From Oscillospiraceae bacterium (GTDB lineage: Bacteria > Bacillota > Clostridia > Oscillospirales > Ruminococcaceae), in assembly GCA_022793675.1 (NCBI GenBank), contig JAAWDH010000010.1:62001-126000 (forward strand): DNA of 64,000 nucleotides, in the 5' to 3' direction. Under the pieces are notes generated by a model that worked only from the letters and a program-made list of their open reading frames with translations, had not been told where the DNA came from and did no database searches. Shown piece after piece: positions 2,761 through 11,878 of the stretch (the stretch's first letter is position 1; each line of letters opens with the position of its first letter). The translations under genes were made by a program, and so were the position numbers.

Positions 2761-3669
2761 CTATTCGCCCAATTCCGCCCGCAGGCGCTCCGCCGCCTCG
2801 GCAATCCGCCGCAGCCGGTGATTGACGCCGCTGCGCGACAGCGGCACCGACAGCCTCCCCGCCAGTTCCCGCAGCGAAAGCTCGCCGTTTTCAACCCGCA
2901 GCAGCGCCAGTTCCCGCAAATCCTCGTCCAGCCACCCAATCCCCCGGCGGCCGAGGATATACTGGATATCCTGAACCTGGCTGCTGGAGGCGGAGACGGT
3001 TTTTTTCAGGTTGGCCGTCTCACAGTTGGTAGTGCGGTTGACCTTGTTGCGGACGTCTTTCATGACCTTGATATCCATCAACTGCAGCACCGACCGCGTC
3101 GCCCCCAGGAATGTCAAAAAGTCTTCGATCTGTTCGCTTTCTTTCAGGTACAGCAGTTCGCTGCTTTTGCGTTTGGCGACTTTGAAGCGGATGCCCACCC
3201 CCTGCGCCAGCAGCAGCAGCTCCTCGGCAAGCAGCGGGTTTAGGGCGTTGATTTCCAGGTGGTACTCCCGCACCGGGCTGGTGACCGACCCGAAAGCAAG
3301 AAAAACCTCGCGGAAAAACGCGGCCTGGCAGCAGCGCCGCTCGACAAATGCCGGCGTCAGCCCGCCGCCCAGCGCAAAGTGCCTGGCCAGCAGCGCCCGC
3401 TGCCCTTCATCGGTGACGCAGACGGGGTAAATAGGCTTCTCCCCTTTCAGACGGCGCAGGTCGCTGCGGATCTCGGCCACTGTCCCAAAGGCCGCCAGCT
3501 CCTCCGCAAAACGGGTGGCTAAGGGCTTGCTTTCGGTTTTGAACACCGTTTCGCCGTCGGGAAAACTGCGGCTTAAAAGCAGCACGCCGTAAATCGCCGC
3601 CTCCCGGCAATGGAGCTTTTTCGGGGCTATCCCGCCAAGCTCCCGCTTGACTTCCTGACAAAACGACAC
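2761..3669 (-). CDS. whiA: DNA-binding protein WhiA
   Basis: WhiA is a conserved Gram-positive protein with a degenerate LAGLIDADG homing-endonuclease fold at the N-terminus and a C-terminal helix-turn-helix. In Streptomyces it controls sporulation genes; in Bacillus it affects cell division and chromosome segregation. At 302 aa it is a normal full-length protein. It begins MSFCQEVKRELGGI and carries RKSSELLYLKESEQIEDFL, NCETANLKKTVSASS and the C-terminal segment LRELAGRLSVPLSRSGVNHR, all typical of the family. The usual partners yvcJ/rapZ and yvcK are not next to it here; its neighbours are rhaM-like and a thioesterase. Confidence 0.95.
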   Translation of the reverse strand: MSFCQEVKRELGGIAPKKLHCREAAIYGVLLLSRSFPDGETVFKTESKPLATRFAEELAAFGTVAEIRSDLRRLKGEKPIYPVCVTDEGQRALLARHFALGGGLTPAFVERRCCQAAFFREVFLAFGSVTSPVREYHLEINALNPLLAEELLLLAQGVGIRFKVAKRKSSELLYLKESEQIEDFLTFLGATRSVLQLMDIKVMKDVRNKVNRTTNCETANLKKTVSASSSQVQDIQYILGRRGIGWLDEDLRELALLRVENGELSLRELAGRLSVPLSRSGVNHRLRRIAEAAERLRAELGE

Positions 3670-3690: not shown

Positions 3691-4008
3691 CTATTCAAAC
3701 AGGAATACCTGCCGCAGCTTGGGCTGCGCGCCGGTCTCTGGATCCATTTCCATCTCCATAACATCCTTCATGTATTCGTTCCAGCGCGCCACGACTGGGC
3801 TTTCAGCCTGCACCTTTGCGGCATAGGCTGCGCCCTTTTCACACTCATAATACCCGAAAAGTTCGTTGCCCACATTCCAGATGGTGTAATTGGCAATCCC
3901 GGCTTCCCGCAGCAGGGACTGCATCTCTGGCCAGAGCGCTTCGTGGCGGCGGATATATTCCGCAAGCTGGCCTTCTTTGACAGTAGCCTTCCAAGCATAG
4001 CGTTCCAT
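3691..4008 (-). CDS. L-rhamnose mutarotase family protein, 105 aa
   Basis: RhaM-type proteins interconvert the alpha and beta anomers of L-rhamnose. The ~105-aa length and ferredoxin-like pattern fit: MERYAWKATVKEGQLAEYIRR, then HEALWPEMQSLLREAGI, then NYTIW and LFGYYECE. The His in RRHEALWPE, the Tyr in NYTIW and the YYE motif correspond to conserved family positions. The ATG at 4008 is chosen because GGAGGTAAAAAC precedes it; a longer frame upstream lacks a ribosome binding site. No rhamnose catabolic genes are nearby, so the true sugar is uncertain. Confidence 0.85.
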   Translation of the reverse strand: MERYAWKATVKEGQLAEYIRRHEALWPEMQSLLREAGIANYTIWNVGNELFGYYECEKGAAYAAKVQAESPVVARWNEYMKDVMEMEMDPETGAQPKLRQVFLFE

Positions 4009-4089
4009 GTTTTTACCTCCTATCATGGCAGCAGATGTGAAACTGGGCATAAAAAGGGCGGATCCCGCCAAAAGGCATCCAAGCCGGCC

Positions 4090-6669
4090 TTATATCCGGG
4101 CAAACCCCGCAGAAAACCCGAAGGAAAGGATCGGCCAGACCAGGGCGTAGCCGCAAAGGATCGGCATCGTCAGCTGCGGCAGCGCGCCCAGCGTCCAGAA
4201 AATCAGCAGCAGCAGGCAGCCTAAGCCAGCCGCCGTAGCCGCCAATACCCGGTTGAGCACCGCCAGCGTCTGCAAACGCTGGCAGGCCGTAAGCAGCGCC
4301 GCAAACCCGCTGGGGGAGCCGTCGTTGACCGCTACCGCCTGTTTGACCCGCACTTCGCCGGAAATGCGTTCCGCCTGGGCGCGGAGCTTCTGCGGAAGGA
4401 CTTTTATCTGCCGGGGATCCACATCCAGCAGCCGCGCCAAGCGCCCTGCGGTCAAAAAGCCGTCGGATACCGTCAGCAGTAGCCCCGAGCCGCCGTCCGT
4501 CAGCGACTGGACGGCGCGGCAGGGTTTTTCAAGCGGATGGAAGGTCAGTACAAATATCGCCGCCAGCTCGACGCCAGACGCCAGATAGAGCAGTTCACGG
4601 CCCTTATCTGTAAACCGTTTTTCATATTCAGCGCTGGGTGCTTTGATCTGATAAGCAGCCATCATCTCCCGGTTGCCCAACAGCACCCGCCGGTCCTCCA
4701 GCCAGCCGACGACCCCCTGGCCGTCAATCAGCTCGACGCTGGAAGCAGCGGCGCGGGGGGCAAGCCCGCCCAGCGCCTGGCCAAACAGTTCCGTCAGCAG
4801 GCTCCCGGAGCCTTGCAGCACCGACGCCGCGTCTACCAACGCCTGGTCAATCCGCGCGCCCTCAAAAGTCTTGATTGCCGCCATCTTTACTGCGGAAGGC
4901 GGGATCAGCTCTGCAACATCCATCAGCACTGCGCCGGTGGAGCGGTAGCGTTCCGCGGCCAGTTCGCCGCAGATCATGCCCCCTTCCTTTGCCGTCCGGC
5001 CCGCCAGCTGCGAGAAAGGGCAGGCTGTGCAGAGATAAGCGGAAGCCGGCGCGAAAAGGGCGATGGCCAGCGTAAACATCATCAGCGCAAAATGCTTTTG
5101 CCGGGTAACCACAAAGCCGGCAAGGGCGGCGGCAGCGCCGACGCCCAGTCCCAGCAGGGAAAGCTTTCTGCCTAGGGAATCGCTGGAATCGGCGGCGAGG
5201 AACATCATTTCGATATCGGCGACCGCCGCCGTCTTGCGGTTGGCCGCAGGCAGGCTGCCCCCCTCCGGCAGGCCTTTCATCAGTACCGCCGCCGTCTGCC
5301 CCCGGGCTAGATAGGGGACGTATTTGTCCCCGGGCTGCCGCAGCAGCGAAAGCCCCTTCAAAGCGCCCTTGCCCGTGAGCACCCGCCCAATACAGCCAAA
5401 CATCAACGCCAAAATCCCGACGGGCAGGTAGCAATGGATGGCAGGGTGGATAAAGCCCATCGGCCGGATGGTCAAAGCGGCCGTCTGGGCCGTCGCCGCC
5501 AGCCAGCAAAGGGCTGGCAGCGAATCGCGGTTGGGTTCCAGCCGCACAAGCGACCAAAGCCCGCCGCCAACCATCGGCAGGACTATGCCGCCCGCCCCCA
5601 GCGCCAGCGCCAGCAGCATCCCCATCAGCGTGAAACTGGGCGCCCATCCCGCCTGCTGCGCCCTGCTGCGCTCCATCAGCACCAACAGCACAGCAGAAAA
5701 GCAGAACAGCAAAAATAACACCCAACCCTGTAAGGAGGATGTCCGGCAGATGCCGTTTAAAATTGCTTCAGGATCGCCCTTATTATTCTCAATCGCGGCA
5801 CGGAAACAGGGGGCGGCCTTAGCGGGCGTCTCTTTGCCCGCCCGGCGGGATTCCTGCTCCCAAGAAGGAGGCTCGTCAATTGGGATCCGGCCGTCCACCG
5901 CGGCGGCCGCGTGCTCGGATGGAGGGGCCGGGCGGCTAGCGGCAGGAACGGCCCGGGTACTGGAAGGTTTAAAAGGCCTTTCTTCAGCAGCTGGCGGCCG
6001 AGGCTTTGGCCGCCTGGGCGGCGGAGGTTCCGGCGCCGGCTCTACTGCTTTTTTAGGCGCAGCCGGCTCTTCCGGCATTTTCTGGGCCGGGATTTCCCGG
6101 GGCGGGGGCGCGCCGGCACGGATGGCGTCAATATCAATCGAAATAGGGCCAGTGGTATAGGCATAGGCTTCGGGCTGCGGCCTTTCGGGGGACGGCACGG
6201 CCTGCCTTTCCGGCTGCTTAGGCGGCTCTGGCGCAGGCTCCTGCCGCGGCGTTTCCGGCGGCGCAGCGCGGCGCATTGACGAAAAGATGCTTTTTGGGGG
6301 TTCCGGGCGCTTGGGAACGGCGGATGGGGCCGGTCCTTTCCCAGCAGACGCGGCAGGTCCCGCCAAAGGCTTGACAGGCTCGGCAGGCGCTTCACGGCCG
6401 GCAGCCAGCTGCTGGAGCAGCTGGTCGACCGACGCGCCCGACGAGGGACTGAGCGACGCAGCAGGCCGCTTTTTCTTGGGGCGCAGGAAAACCCTGGTGG
6501 GCAGCTCCTCTCCCGAAGCCGGGTCAATGCCCGCATGGCTCTGTTCCTGCAAAAGCTCCTCCACCAGCTCTTCCACCAATGCGTCGACGCTGCTGGAAGG
6601 CTTTTTAGGGTCGCCCTGCTGCTCCAGCTCCCTTAGAATCTGGTCGATGGTGGGGTCGTTGCGGCTCAC
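4090..6669 (-). CDS. Degenerate P-type ATPase-like membrane protein with long disordered N-terminus, 859 aa
   Basis: Residues ~50-280 are a Pro/Ala/Glu-rich, probably disordered region. Residues ~312-545 contain about six membrane segments; two more lie at ~806-828 and ~834-855. Between them is a soluble part that lines up with the P and N domains of heavy-metal P1B ATPases. However, every catalytic motif is altered. The CPC-type membrane motif reads TACPFSQLAG (548-557). The phosphorylation loop DKTGTLT reads DVAELIP (D584). The TGD loop reads VSDG (~734-737). GDGxNDxPAL reads VNDGSPSGFAAL (~781-792). The N-domain pattern GVVGWLEDRRVLLGN (~652-666) is still recognisable. It therefore looks like a non-pumping pseudo-ATPase. 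It starts with GTG after AAAGGAGT and lies between rlmB and the rhaM-like gene. Function unknown. Confidence 0.75.
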   Translation of the reverse strand: MSRNDPTIDQILRELEQQGDPKKPSSSVDALVEELVEELLQEQSHAGIDPASGEELPTRVFLRPKKKRPAASLSPSSGASVDQLLQQLAAGREAPAEPVKPLAGPAASAGKGPAPSAVPKRPEPPKSIFSSMRRAAPPETPRQEPAPEPPKQPERQAVPSPERPQPEAYAYTTGPISIDIDAIRAGAPPPREIPAQKMPEEPAAPKKAVEPAPEPPPPRRPKPRPPAAEERPFKPSSTRAVPAASRPAPPSEHAAAAVDGRIPIDEPPSWEQESRRAGKETPAKAAPCFRAAIENNKGDPEAILNGICRTSSLQGWVLFLLFCFSAVLLVLMERSRAQQAGWAPSFTLMGMLLALALGAGGIVLPMVGGGLWSLVRLEPNRDSLPALCWLAATAQTAALTIRPMGFIHPAIHCYLPVGILALMFGCIGRVLTGKGALKGLSLLRQPGDKYVPYLARGQTAAVLMKGLPEGGSLPAANRKTAAVADIEMMFLAADSSDSLGRKLSLLGLGVGAAAALAGFVVTRQKHFALMMFTLAIALFAPASAYLCTACPFSQLAGRTAKEGGMICGELAAERYRSTGAVLMDVAELIPPSAVKMAAIKTFEGARIDQALVDAASVLQGSGSLLTELFGQALGGLAPRAAASSVELIDGQGVVGWLEDRRVLLGNREMMAAYQIKAPSAEYEKRFTDKGRELLYLASGVELAAIFVLTFHPLEKPCRAVQSLTDGGSGLLLTVSDGFLTAGRLARLLDVDPRQIKVLPQKLRAQAERISGEVRVKQAVAVNDGSPSGFAALLTACQRLQTLAVLNRVLAATAAGLGCLLLLIFWTLGALPQLTMPILCGYALVWPILSFGFSAGFARI

Positions 6670-6696
6670 TGCGGCTCACTCCTTTCGTCCAGCAGG

Positions 6697-7521
6697 TCAG
6701 CGTCCCGCCCCTGCCTCCATACGCTGTCTGGCAATTTCATACATCATAATACCGCCGGCCACCGAAGCATTCAGGGAGTTAACCTTTCCTAACATCGGCA
6801 GCGACACCAGCTGGTCGCATTTTTCCTTCAAAAGCCGGCTGATCCCGCGGCCCTCCGAGCCGACCACCAGCACGACGCCGCCAGAAAAGTTGGTGCTGTG
6901 CCAGCTGCCGCCCTCCATATCGCAGCCATAAAGCCATAAGCCCTTCTCTTTCAGCTCCTCTGCCGCCGAAACCAGGTTCCCAACCCGCGCCACCGGCAGA
7001 TGGGCCGCCGCGCCGGCCGACGACTTAAACACCGCCGCAGTCAGGCCCACGCCCCGGCGCTTGGGAATAACGATGCCATGTGCGCCGGCCGCTTCGGCAG
7101 TGCGGATCAGCGCCCCGAGGTTATGGGGGTCTTCAATTTCATCGGCTAAAATAATAAAAGGAGCCTCGCCGCGGCTGGCCGCCAGCTCCAACAGGTCGGA
7201 AAGCTCAGCGTACTCCGCCGCGGGCAGGGTCAGCGCCGCGCCTTGGTGACGGACGCCGCCAGCCATTGCATCCAGCTTTTCCGCCGAGACCTCCTTAACG
7301 GGGCAGCCCTGCTCCTTGGCTAACGTGATGATAGCCGAAAGGCCGTTTCGCTGCCCGGAAGCAATGTAGAGGGTGTCGGCCTGCCTGCCGGATTTTAAAA
7401 GCTCCAGCACGGCGTTGCGGCCGGCAACCAGGTTTTCGTACCCAGCCTCATGTTGAGGCTTCCTTCTAGCAGGCGCGCCCTTCTGCGGACGGCCTTGGGC
7501 GGGACGGGGTGGATTTTTCAT
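6697..7521 (-). CDS. rlmB: 23S rRNA (guanosine-2'-O-)-methyltransferase RlmB / SpoU family
   Basis: A SpoU (TrmH) family enzyme that transfers a methyl group from SAM to a ribose 2'-OH, most likely G2251 of 23S rRNA. After a basic N-terminal tail (~25 residues) comes the RNA-binding substrate domain (ENLVAGRNAVLELLKSGR). The SPOUT domain follows, with motif 1 EDPHNLGALIRTAEAAG, motif 2 VLVVGSEGRGISRLL and motif 3 PMLGKVNSLNASVAGGIMMYE. The length of 274 aa is normal. It is the first gene of the minus-strand run that continues into the P-type ATPase-like gene 27 bp away. Assignment to RlmB over other SpoU members is likely but not proven. Confidence 0.88.
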   Translation of the reverse strand: MKNPPRPAQGRPQKGAPARRKPQHEAGYENLVAGRNAVLELLKSGRQADTLYIASGQRNGLSAIITLAKEQGCPVKEVSAEKLDAMAGGVRHQGAALTLPAAEYAELSDLLELAASRGEAPFIILADEIEDPHNLGALIRTAEAAGAHGIVIPKRRGVGLTAAVFKSSAGAAAHLPVARVGNLVSAAEELKEKGLWLYGCDMEGGSWHSTNFSGGVVLVVGSEGRGISRLLKEKCDQLVSLPMLGKVNSLNASVAGGIMMYEIARQRMEAGAGR

Positions 7522-9967: not shown

Positions 9968-10201
9968 AGGTTGGCCCTCCTTTTATGCAAGCCTTCGTTA
10001 GAAGCAGATTTGCAGCGGCTTGCTTCCTTTCAGTATACACCTTTGTCAAAATAGATGCAACCGTTTAAACCAGAAAAACTGCCGAAAATCCACGCCCTTT
10101 TTCGGCATTGTGCCGCAAAAGGGCCGGCGGGGCTTCCGACGCATTTCTGCCCTTTTCGCAGGCTGGCGGGGGTATACTGGAATGGACAGGGAGGGGCGGG
10201 G

Positions 10202-11047
10202 ATGGAGATCTATCTGGATGTGCTGATCGGGCTGAATTTGTACATAACCTATGCGCTGCTGTGCTGCTGCGAGCTGCTGGGGCATTTCCAGGCAAAGCCG
10301 CTGCGCAAAGGCCTTTCGGCGCTATTGGGAGGGCTTTCAGCGCTGCTGATCCTCTGGCCGGAGCTGGGGGCGGCTACATTGACTGCTTTGCGGCTGGGGC
10401 TGGCGGCGGTACTGACCCTTATAGCTTTTGGCTATGGCGGCGCAGGAAAATTCTGGCGGAGGGTGGGACTTTTTTTCCTTATTAATTTCCTTTTTGCCGG
10501 GGTGATGATTGCCTGCTGGCTGGTATTTACGCCGCCAGGGATGGCCATCCGCAACGGCGTTGTCTACTTCCACCTGTCGGCGCTGACAATGGTTGCGGCA
10601 ACCATCGCCGCCTCGCTGGCGGTAAAAGGGCTGTCGACGCTGTTTTGGCGGCGGAAGCCGGAAGCGCTGCTGATGGAGGCCACCCTCACGGCCGACGGCA
10701 GGGAAACGGCGCTGCGCATCCTGCTGGATACGGGCAACCGCTTAGCTCTTTCTGGGGTACCGGTGGTGGTGTGCAGCAGGAAAAGCCTTGCCGCACTGCT
10801 GCCGGCAGAATTTTTTGCGGCGGCAGACGACCTGGCGGGGCTTTCTGGGCTTTCGGGGAGCAGCTGGGGGCGGCGCATCCGCCTTGTCCCCTGCGAAACC
10901 GCGGCAGGGAAAAAGCTGCTGCCGGCCTTCCGCCCCGACAGCTTTACCCGCAGCGACGGCGAACGGCTGGACTGTTTCGTGGCCGTTACTGACGGGGATT
11001 TCGGCGACGCTGACGGCGCTGCGCCGGAGGAATTATGGAAAAGCTAA
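10202..11047 (+). CDS. spoIIGA: Sporulation sigma-E factor processing peptidase SpoIIGA
   Basis: A membrane-embedded aspartic protease that removes the pro-sequence from sigma-E in the mother cell after asymmetric septation. The N-terminal half (residues ~5-145) holds about five hydrophobic segments starting MEIYLDVLIGLNLYITY. The C-terminal half contains LLDTGNRL, with catalytic Asp176 in the DTGN motif. The start at 10202 is used because GGAGGGGCGGGG precedes the ATG and the protein then begins like other SpoIIGA proteins. sigE follows 69 bp downstream, the expected pairing. The length (281 aa) is normal. Confidence 0.93.
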   Translation: MEIYLDVLIGLNLYITYALLCCCELLGHFQAKPLRKGLSALLGGLSALLILWPELGAATLTALRLGLAAVLTLIAFGYGGAGKFWRRVGLFFLINFLFAGVMIACWLVFTPPGMAIRNGVVYFHLSALTMVAATIAASLAVKGLSTLFWRRKPEALLMEATLTADGRETALRILLDTGNRLALSGVPVVVCSRKSLAALLPAEFFAAADDLAGLSGLSGSSWGRRIRLVPCETAAGKKLLPAFRPDSFTRSDGERLDCFVAVTDGDFGDADGAAPEELWKS

Positions 11048-11116
11048 AATATAGGTATCCCGGCGAGTGAAGCTAGCTGCGCCGGCCGAGTAAAAAAAGA
11101 AAGGCAGGAACCCACC

Positions 11117-11878
11117 ATGACCCGCACAATCAACCTGATCCATCACCCGTTCGCTGCGCTGAAGCGGCTTAGGCTGGCGGTCCGGCTTAAACTGGAAGCA
11201 TGGCTGGGCCGGCTGAGAAAGGCCGGCCGGCTGGACTATATCAACGGCGCGCAGTCCCTGCCGCCGCCGCTGACCCGCGAAGAGGAACAGCAAGCATTCG
11301 CGCTGCTGGCAACCGAACCGGCCAAGGCAAAGGAACTGCTGATTACCCATAATTTGCGGCTGGTGGTGTACATCGCCCGCAAATTCGAATCGACCGGCAC
11401 CGGACTTGAAGACCTGATCTCTATCGGCACAATCGGGCTGATTAAAGCGGTGGGCACCTTTTCGCCGGACAAGAAGATCAAGCTTGCAACCTACGCTTCC
11501 CGCTGCATTGAGAATGAAATCCTGATGCACCTGCGGAAAACCGCCCGCCAGAAGGCCGAGGTCTCCTTTGACGAGCCGCTGAACGTCGATTGGGACGGCA
11601 ACGAGCTGCTTTTGTCCGACGTGCTTGGGACCGATGAGGACTGCATCCGCCGCGATATGGAATATGAAGCTGAGAAAGAGGCTTTGCGGCAGGCGGTGGA
11701 ACGGCTCTGCGGCCGGGAACGCAGGATCATGGAGCTGCGCTTCGGGCTTGGCGGCAAAAAGGAACATACTCAAAAGGAGGTCGCCGACTTAATCGGCATC
11801 TCCCAATCCTACATTTCCCGGCTGGAAAAGCGGATCCTCAAACGGCTGGCGGCAGAGCTGCGGGAGGAGCTGGAATGA
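11117..11878 (+). CDS. sigE: RNA polymerase sporulation sigma factor SigE (pro-sigma-E)
   Basis: Mother-cell sigma factor made as an inactive precursor. The basic, amphipathic pro-region is at residues ~1-30. Region 2 follows ([57 protein letters not shown]). Region 4 ends with the helix-turn-helix [19 protein letters not shown]. The length of 253 aa is slightly longer than the Bacillus protein (239 aa). The gene is downstream of its protease spoIIGA. The third member often found here, sigG, does not follow; a small Cys-rich gene does. Confidence 0.95.

Follow-up and report, generated by a model that had tools for sequence, protein, structure and literature searches.

The pseudo-pump gene and its neighbours

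The window, the whole 64,000-nucleotide stretch of DNA that was analysed, contains on its minus strand one uninterrupted 859-residue frame with a GTG start at 6669 and a stop at 4090, preceded by a ribosome-binding site (Table 1). It encodes a membrane protein with the looks of a heavy-metal P1B ATPase, here called the pseudo-pump. The frame is intact, as the earlier note on this DNA had stated, and a homologue exists in nearly every genome of the order. Directly upstream lies rlmB, with its stop codon 27 nt from the pseudo-pump gene. Downstream, by reading of the sequence, a small gene that begins 18 nt after the pseudo-pump stop (3691-4071, minus strand) resembles L-rhamnose mutarotase, and the gene at 2761-3669 (minus strand) resembles whiA. 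Further along the window, on the plus strand, a gene for a membrane protein followed by one for a sporulation-type sigma factor (10055-11878) resembles, again by reading, the spoIIGA-sigE pair, from which the organism is probably a spore former.

Table 1. Features of the pseudo-pump locus (window coordinates)
Feature	Position	Strand	Basis
Pseudo-pump gene; P1B-like membrane protein predicted to be catalytically dead, 859 aa	4090..6669	-	ORF, family, profile, predicted model
rlmB, 23S rRNA 2'-O-methyltransferase, TrmH/SpoU family, upstream partner	6697..7521	-	sequence similarity and position
Ribosome-binding site region, AAAGGAG about 8 nt before the GTG start	6672..6685	-	sequence
N-terminal Pro-rich tail, residues 1-285	5815..6669	-	composition; disorder predicted by analogy with modelled orthologue L098
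N-terminal helical motif TIDQILRELEQQ, residues 7-18, the window's version of VDDILEEIKRKK	6616..6651	-	motif pattern, L098 model
Second motif-like copy VDALVEELVEELLQEQ, residues 28-43	6541..6588	-	motif pattern
Third motif-like copy VDQLLQQL, residues 81-88	6406..6429	-	motif pattern
Membrane helices MA, MB, M1, M2, residues 300-444	5338..5772	-	predicted model; CopA alignment
Remnant A domain without TGE loop, residues 445-494	5188..5337	-	CopA alignment, model, segment lengths
Membrane helices M3-M4, residues 495-546	5032..5187	-	CopA alignment, model
CPC-equivalent position APA, residues 540-542	5044..5052	-	alignment; family counts
Former DKTGT site (DVAEL) and family-specific stretch DVAELIPPSAVKMAAIKTFEGARIDQALVDA	4828..4920	-	alignment, family counts
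N domain, residues 600-712; retains its fold and the GQGVVG loop but not the catalytic His	4534..4872	-	CopA alignment, counts, structure comparison
P domain, second part, residues 713-790; VSD at TGD position, no GDGxxND, shortened before M5	4300..4533	-	conservation mapping, segment lengths
Membrane helices M5-M6, residues 786-858	4096..4314	-	model, conservation mapping

Homology and predicted fold

Pfam returned no match for the window protein; of 78 relatives, five gave a weak match to HAD hydrolases and the others nothing. All 78 relatives of alignment A3 match the NCBIfam CopA model (PRK10671); the window protein matches it with an E-value of 1.3e-11 and 43.5 bits, far under the curated cut-off of 1316. 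A single-sequence search with the window protein reaches LpCopA at E 2.1e-5, and the family profile reaches it at E 1.4e-20, with other copper pumps below that. The window's own genome encodes a complete CopA of 865 residues (locus L170, 4149-6746, contig 58 of G000), which possesses all the catalytic motifs and metal-binding domains at both ends and served as the positive control. The pseudo-pump aligns to this intact CopA in two blocks, the first comprising MA to M2 and the second M3-M4 together with the P and N domains.

The AlphaFold2 model of residues 286-859, built from 78 sequences, has a pLDDT of 92.7 and a pTM of 0.88, and displays the features expected of P-type descent: eight helices, a split P domain and an inserted N domain. 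Foldseek with this model ranks P1B pumps first (4bbj, E 3.4e-16), and VIA-align superposes it on LpCopA (3rfu) with a Z-score of 23.6 over 486 residues and an rmsd of 9.1, a value that indicates domains placed differently, as they are between states of real pumps. The same core was modelled, with a pLDDT of about 95, for a second, independently chosen full-length member (L098). By profile matches and predicted structures, the pseudo-pump family is homologous to P1B pumps. The P1B-like topology and P/N-domain pattern seen by the earlier note are borne out by PRK10671, the LpCopA profile match and the predicted fold, and its suggested HMM and structure comparison found a relation where none might have appeared. 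The eight-helix topology with MA and MB and the P/N fold are common to the family and the P1B-1 copper ATPases (CopA; LpCopA 3rfu, 4bbj). Unlike CopA, the family is without CPC, DKTGT, TGE, HP, TGD and GDGxxND, its A domain is halved, and a Pro-rich tail stands in place of the metal-binding domain.

Loss of catalytic and metal-binding features

Motifs were counted in 150 distinct family members from about 25 GTDB families. At the DKTGT position neither the Lys nor the final Thr is found in any member, and the Asp is kept in 84/150, including the window protein, where the motif reads DVAEL (residues 584-588) as first reported. The losses are thus common to the orthologues, and the intact DKTGT that would have marked a recent pseudogene was not found among them. 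The CPC motif had been matched to CPF, but this was misplaced: CPC aligns with APA (residues 540-542), and CPF lies ten residues further on (550-552) and is not the metal site. Across the family the first Cys of CPC is present in 7/150, the second in none, and the M4 proline in 127/150. The His of the N-domain HP motif is absent from all 150. TGD, which is VSD in the window protein (734-736), has lost its Gly in every member and kept its Asp in 146/150; GDGxxND is missing from the window protein and from the other members alike, so the alteration of both motifs was read correctly. The second Gly of the N-domain GxG is kept in 148/150, the first is lost in about half, and few stretches of the family are as well conserved as the loop EDGxGLSAWV. 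The claim that every key residue had been lost therefore holds for most of them but not for the TGD Asp, the second GxG Gly or, in the members noted above, the DKTGT Asp. The motif III Lys and both motif IV Asp residues are gone from the family. Six genuine P1B pumps recovered from the same loci do have DKTGT, so the motif alignment is sound.

The loss exceeds the motifs. The M2-M3 stretch, which corresponds to the A domain, measures 72 residues versus 134 in the same genome's CopA and has no TGE, and the distance from TGD to M5 is 70 residues versus 104; the N-domain stretch is of unchanged length (150 versus 152). At the former DKTGT site the family has its own consensus, D-A-x-D-L-F-P-x-G-x-V-x-L-x-G-I-K-T-F-x-x-x-R-I-D. 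Strongly conserved polar residues (R150, N140, N154 and K144 in model numbering) cluster at the M2 end and in the remnant A domain, and few conserved polar residues are found within the membrane helices.

P-type ion pumps are defined by their aspartyl-phosphate cycle. The HAD site has lost its nucleophile, its Lys and its metal-binding Asp, so that under the established P-type mechanism phosphorylation chemistry would not be expected. We infer from the loss of all three HAD-site catalytic groups and of half the A domain that the family is non-catalytic. The family descends from P1B pumps yet lacks every functional hallmark tested, and it should not be filed as one.

The N-terminal tail

The first 285 residues of the window protein are 20% Pro and 28% charged, in agreement with the Pro-rich N-terminus of about 280 residues described earlier. 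Most members open with a motif like YSVDDILEEIKRKK, which in deeper families is FSLEDILAEF; 20 to several hundred disordered residues follow before the first membrane helix. In the L098 model the motif is an isolated helix with a pLDDT of about 90, and linker residues 28-184 are under 50. The motif pattern occurs in 90/116 tails, with 96 copies observed versus 0.6 in shuffles, an excess that is partly circular because the pattern was written from the same sequences. The rows of alignment A4 were chosen for having the tail motif. Three separate motif-like copies are present in the window tail.

No neighbouring ORF was seen to carry the motif at its N-terminus, and a DNA-pattern search of 14 genomes for other proteins that start with it gave, besides the family, only internal, unrelated matches. 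The idea that this order's RlmB has a special basic N-terminal extension to meet the acidic tail motif found no support (median 17 versus 12 residues, net charge equal). The tail cannot be essential everywhere, since members of about 553 residues in family f10 (G366 and other f10 genomes; L248) are without it entirely. These tailless members constitute a natural test of the tail's role.

Distribution, gene order and selection

Scored as one match at E 1e-30 or better, the family is single-copy in 222/245 genomes of the window's order and in 176/185 of those of good quality; some of the order's genomes outside the 222 hold a member at a weaker E-value. No full-length member was found in approximately 570 genomes sampled outside the order (about 290 of the phylum and 279 of the class), where only the split match pattern of genuine pumps was detected, with a best E-value of about 1e-28. 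Among the named carriers are Anaerotruncus, Caproiciproducens, Acetanaerobacterium, Negativibacillus, Anaeromassilibacillus and Merdimmobilis, and from these names the order, which consists mostly of gut-dwelling bacteria, is most likely Oscillospirales in GTDB terms. Phylogenetic analysis places the family in a single clade on a very long branch (support 100/100, recovered in 100% of bootstraps). An apparent second copy in Merdimmobilis (L090:6160-8844) was rejected as a scaffold gap filled with N: the long run of N joins a repeated segment of rlmB to the start of the pseudo-pump, and looks like a scaffolding artefact. The orthologue of G058 (L018 / L265) has an in-frame TGA within the conserved core, which may be a sequencing error, decay or recoding.

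In 106/115 loci with enough sequence the gene immediately upstream, on the same strand, is rlmB, and an RlmB relative is on the same strand in all 40 deep loci, which represent about 22 families of the order. Beyond rlmB, no neighbour is conserved throughout the order; an EF-G-like gene, a DNA glycosylase and SpoIIE each occur in minorities of loci.

When close relatives are compared in pairs, dN/dS is 0.02-0.09 in the pseudo-pump core, against 0.01-0.09 in RlmB and 0.08-0.29 in the tail. Purifying selection on the core is strong, nearly as tight as that on a housekeeping rRNA methyltransferase, and the dN/dS comparison that had been proposed speaks against relaxed selection. As a family, the pseudo-pumps present neither relaxed selection nor broken frames. 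The suggestion of a retained non-catalytic role rather than decay is supported by the near-universal single copy, the low dN/dS and the fixed operon position.

Origin of the family

In five genera of an outgroup family (f162), an intact CopA gene overlaps rlmB or lies within 8 nt of it (loci L327-L330 and L334, in G590, G622, G673, G694 and G647). These CopAs keep the metal-binding domain, TGES, CPC and DKTGT, the four full-length ones also keep TGD and GDGxND, and together they form one clade. The rlmB-copA pairing was found in 0/34 rlmB loci from other outgroup families. The slot directly behind rlmB and the fold family are common to the f162 CopA and the pseudo-pump; unlike the pseudo-pump, the f162 CopA has all catalytic and metal motifs intact and an N-terminal metal-binding domain. 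Such a pair would be the expected remnant of an ancestral rlmB-copA operon, and it hints that a working pump may have been converted in place from an active operon of this kind. The ancestral pump would have been inactivated in the window's order, and the tail would have taken the place of the metal-binding domain. The tree does not place the pseudo-pump family beside the rlmB-linked CopAs, a joint clade being neither supported nor rejected (AU p 0.27), and the RlmB tree has no resolution at depth.

Discussion

What could a P1B-like protein do once phosphorylation, dephosphorylation and metal binding have been lost? The family probably performs a structural or recruiting job that has not been previously described. 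In the reading that we prefer, to which we give an even chance, it is an ancient, order-wide pseudo-pump that acts as a membrane-anchored, non-catalytic scaffold or receptor whose tail recruits a cytosolic partner. The eight-helix membrane part and the P and N domains would have been kept as a folded platform, the VDDILEEIKRKK-type helix of the tail would dock the partner, and the P/N domain, inert and bearing the family-specific conserved face DLFPxGxVxLxGIKTFxxxRID, would hold or position it at the membrane. RlmB or another ribosome or translation factor would be the first candidate, solely because of the fixed gene pair, and the fixed order with rlmB may equally be operon inertia. A bolder version, unlikely as it stands, has an rlmB-linked copper pump converted once, at the root of the order, into a nearly indispensable non-transporting receptor whose conserved tail helix holds a cytosolic machine (perhaps RlmB or ribosomes) at the membrane.

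Other roles can be imagined for a dead pump. It is quite unlikely that the protein is a ligand sensor, in which a nucleotide or some other small molecule still bound by the N domain alters the availability of the tail: the near-invariant GxG Gly (148/150) and the well conserved EDGxGLSAWV loop would suit such a role, but all 150 members lack the ATP-stacking His and about half lack the first Gly. Less probable again is a passive channel or carrier that moves another solute without ATP. The full set of eight membrane helices is retained and conserved, with the M4 proline in 127/150, but few conserved polar residues lie in those helices, the strongly conserved ones cluster at the M2 end and in the remnant A domain, and the large conserved P and N domains would lack a role. 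We regard as lower still the chance that the pseudo-pump is a regulatory or chaperone subunit of an active P1B pump, for example in a hetero-dimer with CopA. Fold and ancestry are in common and the window's genome also holds an intact CopA; however, several pseudo-pump genomes (G529, G401 and G402) have no other P1B match at E 1e-5, the gene is paired with rlmB rather than with a metal pump, and the tail has no metal-binding domain. That the protein is still an enzyme, with an alternative catalytic residue in the HAD site, is very improbable: the TGD Asp (146/150) and Lys and Asp residues that are invariant in the family and lie close to the former site would be available, but with the motif III Lys and both motif IV Asp gone and the nucleophile Asp variable (84/150), no Mg-phosphoryl site remains. 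A decaying pseudogene, or a recent loss in the window genome alone, is hardly credible and is refuted by orthologue conservation and dN/dS, for although the catalytic motifs are destroyed and one orthologue (G058) has an in-frame TGA, the losses are identical in all 150 members across about 25 GTDB families with open frames and one copy per genome, dN/dS is far below 1, and the predicted fold is of high confidence.

Some known proteins are comparable in part. PcrP of Pseudomonas aeruginosa (PA2803 subfamily) is an inactive HAD-fold protein that works through protein binding (PMC12632274), and so provides a precedent for a dead HAD-fold protein that binds partners instead; unlike the pseudo-pump it is a soluble, phosphonatase-like HAD with no membrane part and is not a P-type pump. 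ATP13A5, one of the weakly active P5 ATPases, is a P-type protein without detected autophosphorylation (PMC5837089); unlike the pseudo-pump, ATP13A5 keeps the P-type motifs, and the negative assay may be technical. In apicomplexan guanylyl cyclase alpha, a P4-ATPase module brings the P-type pump fold into a signalling protein (PMC7858053), but there the conserved catalytic Asp is kept and needed. In those parts of a 2023 review that bear on inactive or degenerate forms, no bacterial family without an aspartyl-phosphate cycle appears (PMC10654040). Our literature search for inactive P-type ATPases or an rlmB-linked ATPase returned nothing relevant, and the pseudo-pump would appear to work unlike any P-type ATPase described in the literature searched.

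Genome annotation is likely to label this protein a 'metal ATPase', which on present evidence is wrong. Among bacteria, the family would be a clear example of a P-type pump that has become a protein without transport function. A whole gut-abundant order keeps exactly one such protein, under strong selection, beside an rRNA methyltransferase gene; should it prove essential, it would offer a target or marker specific to this lineage.
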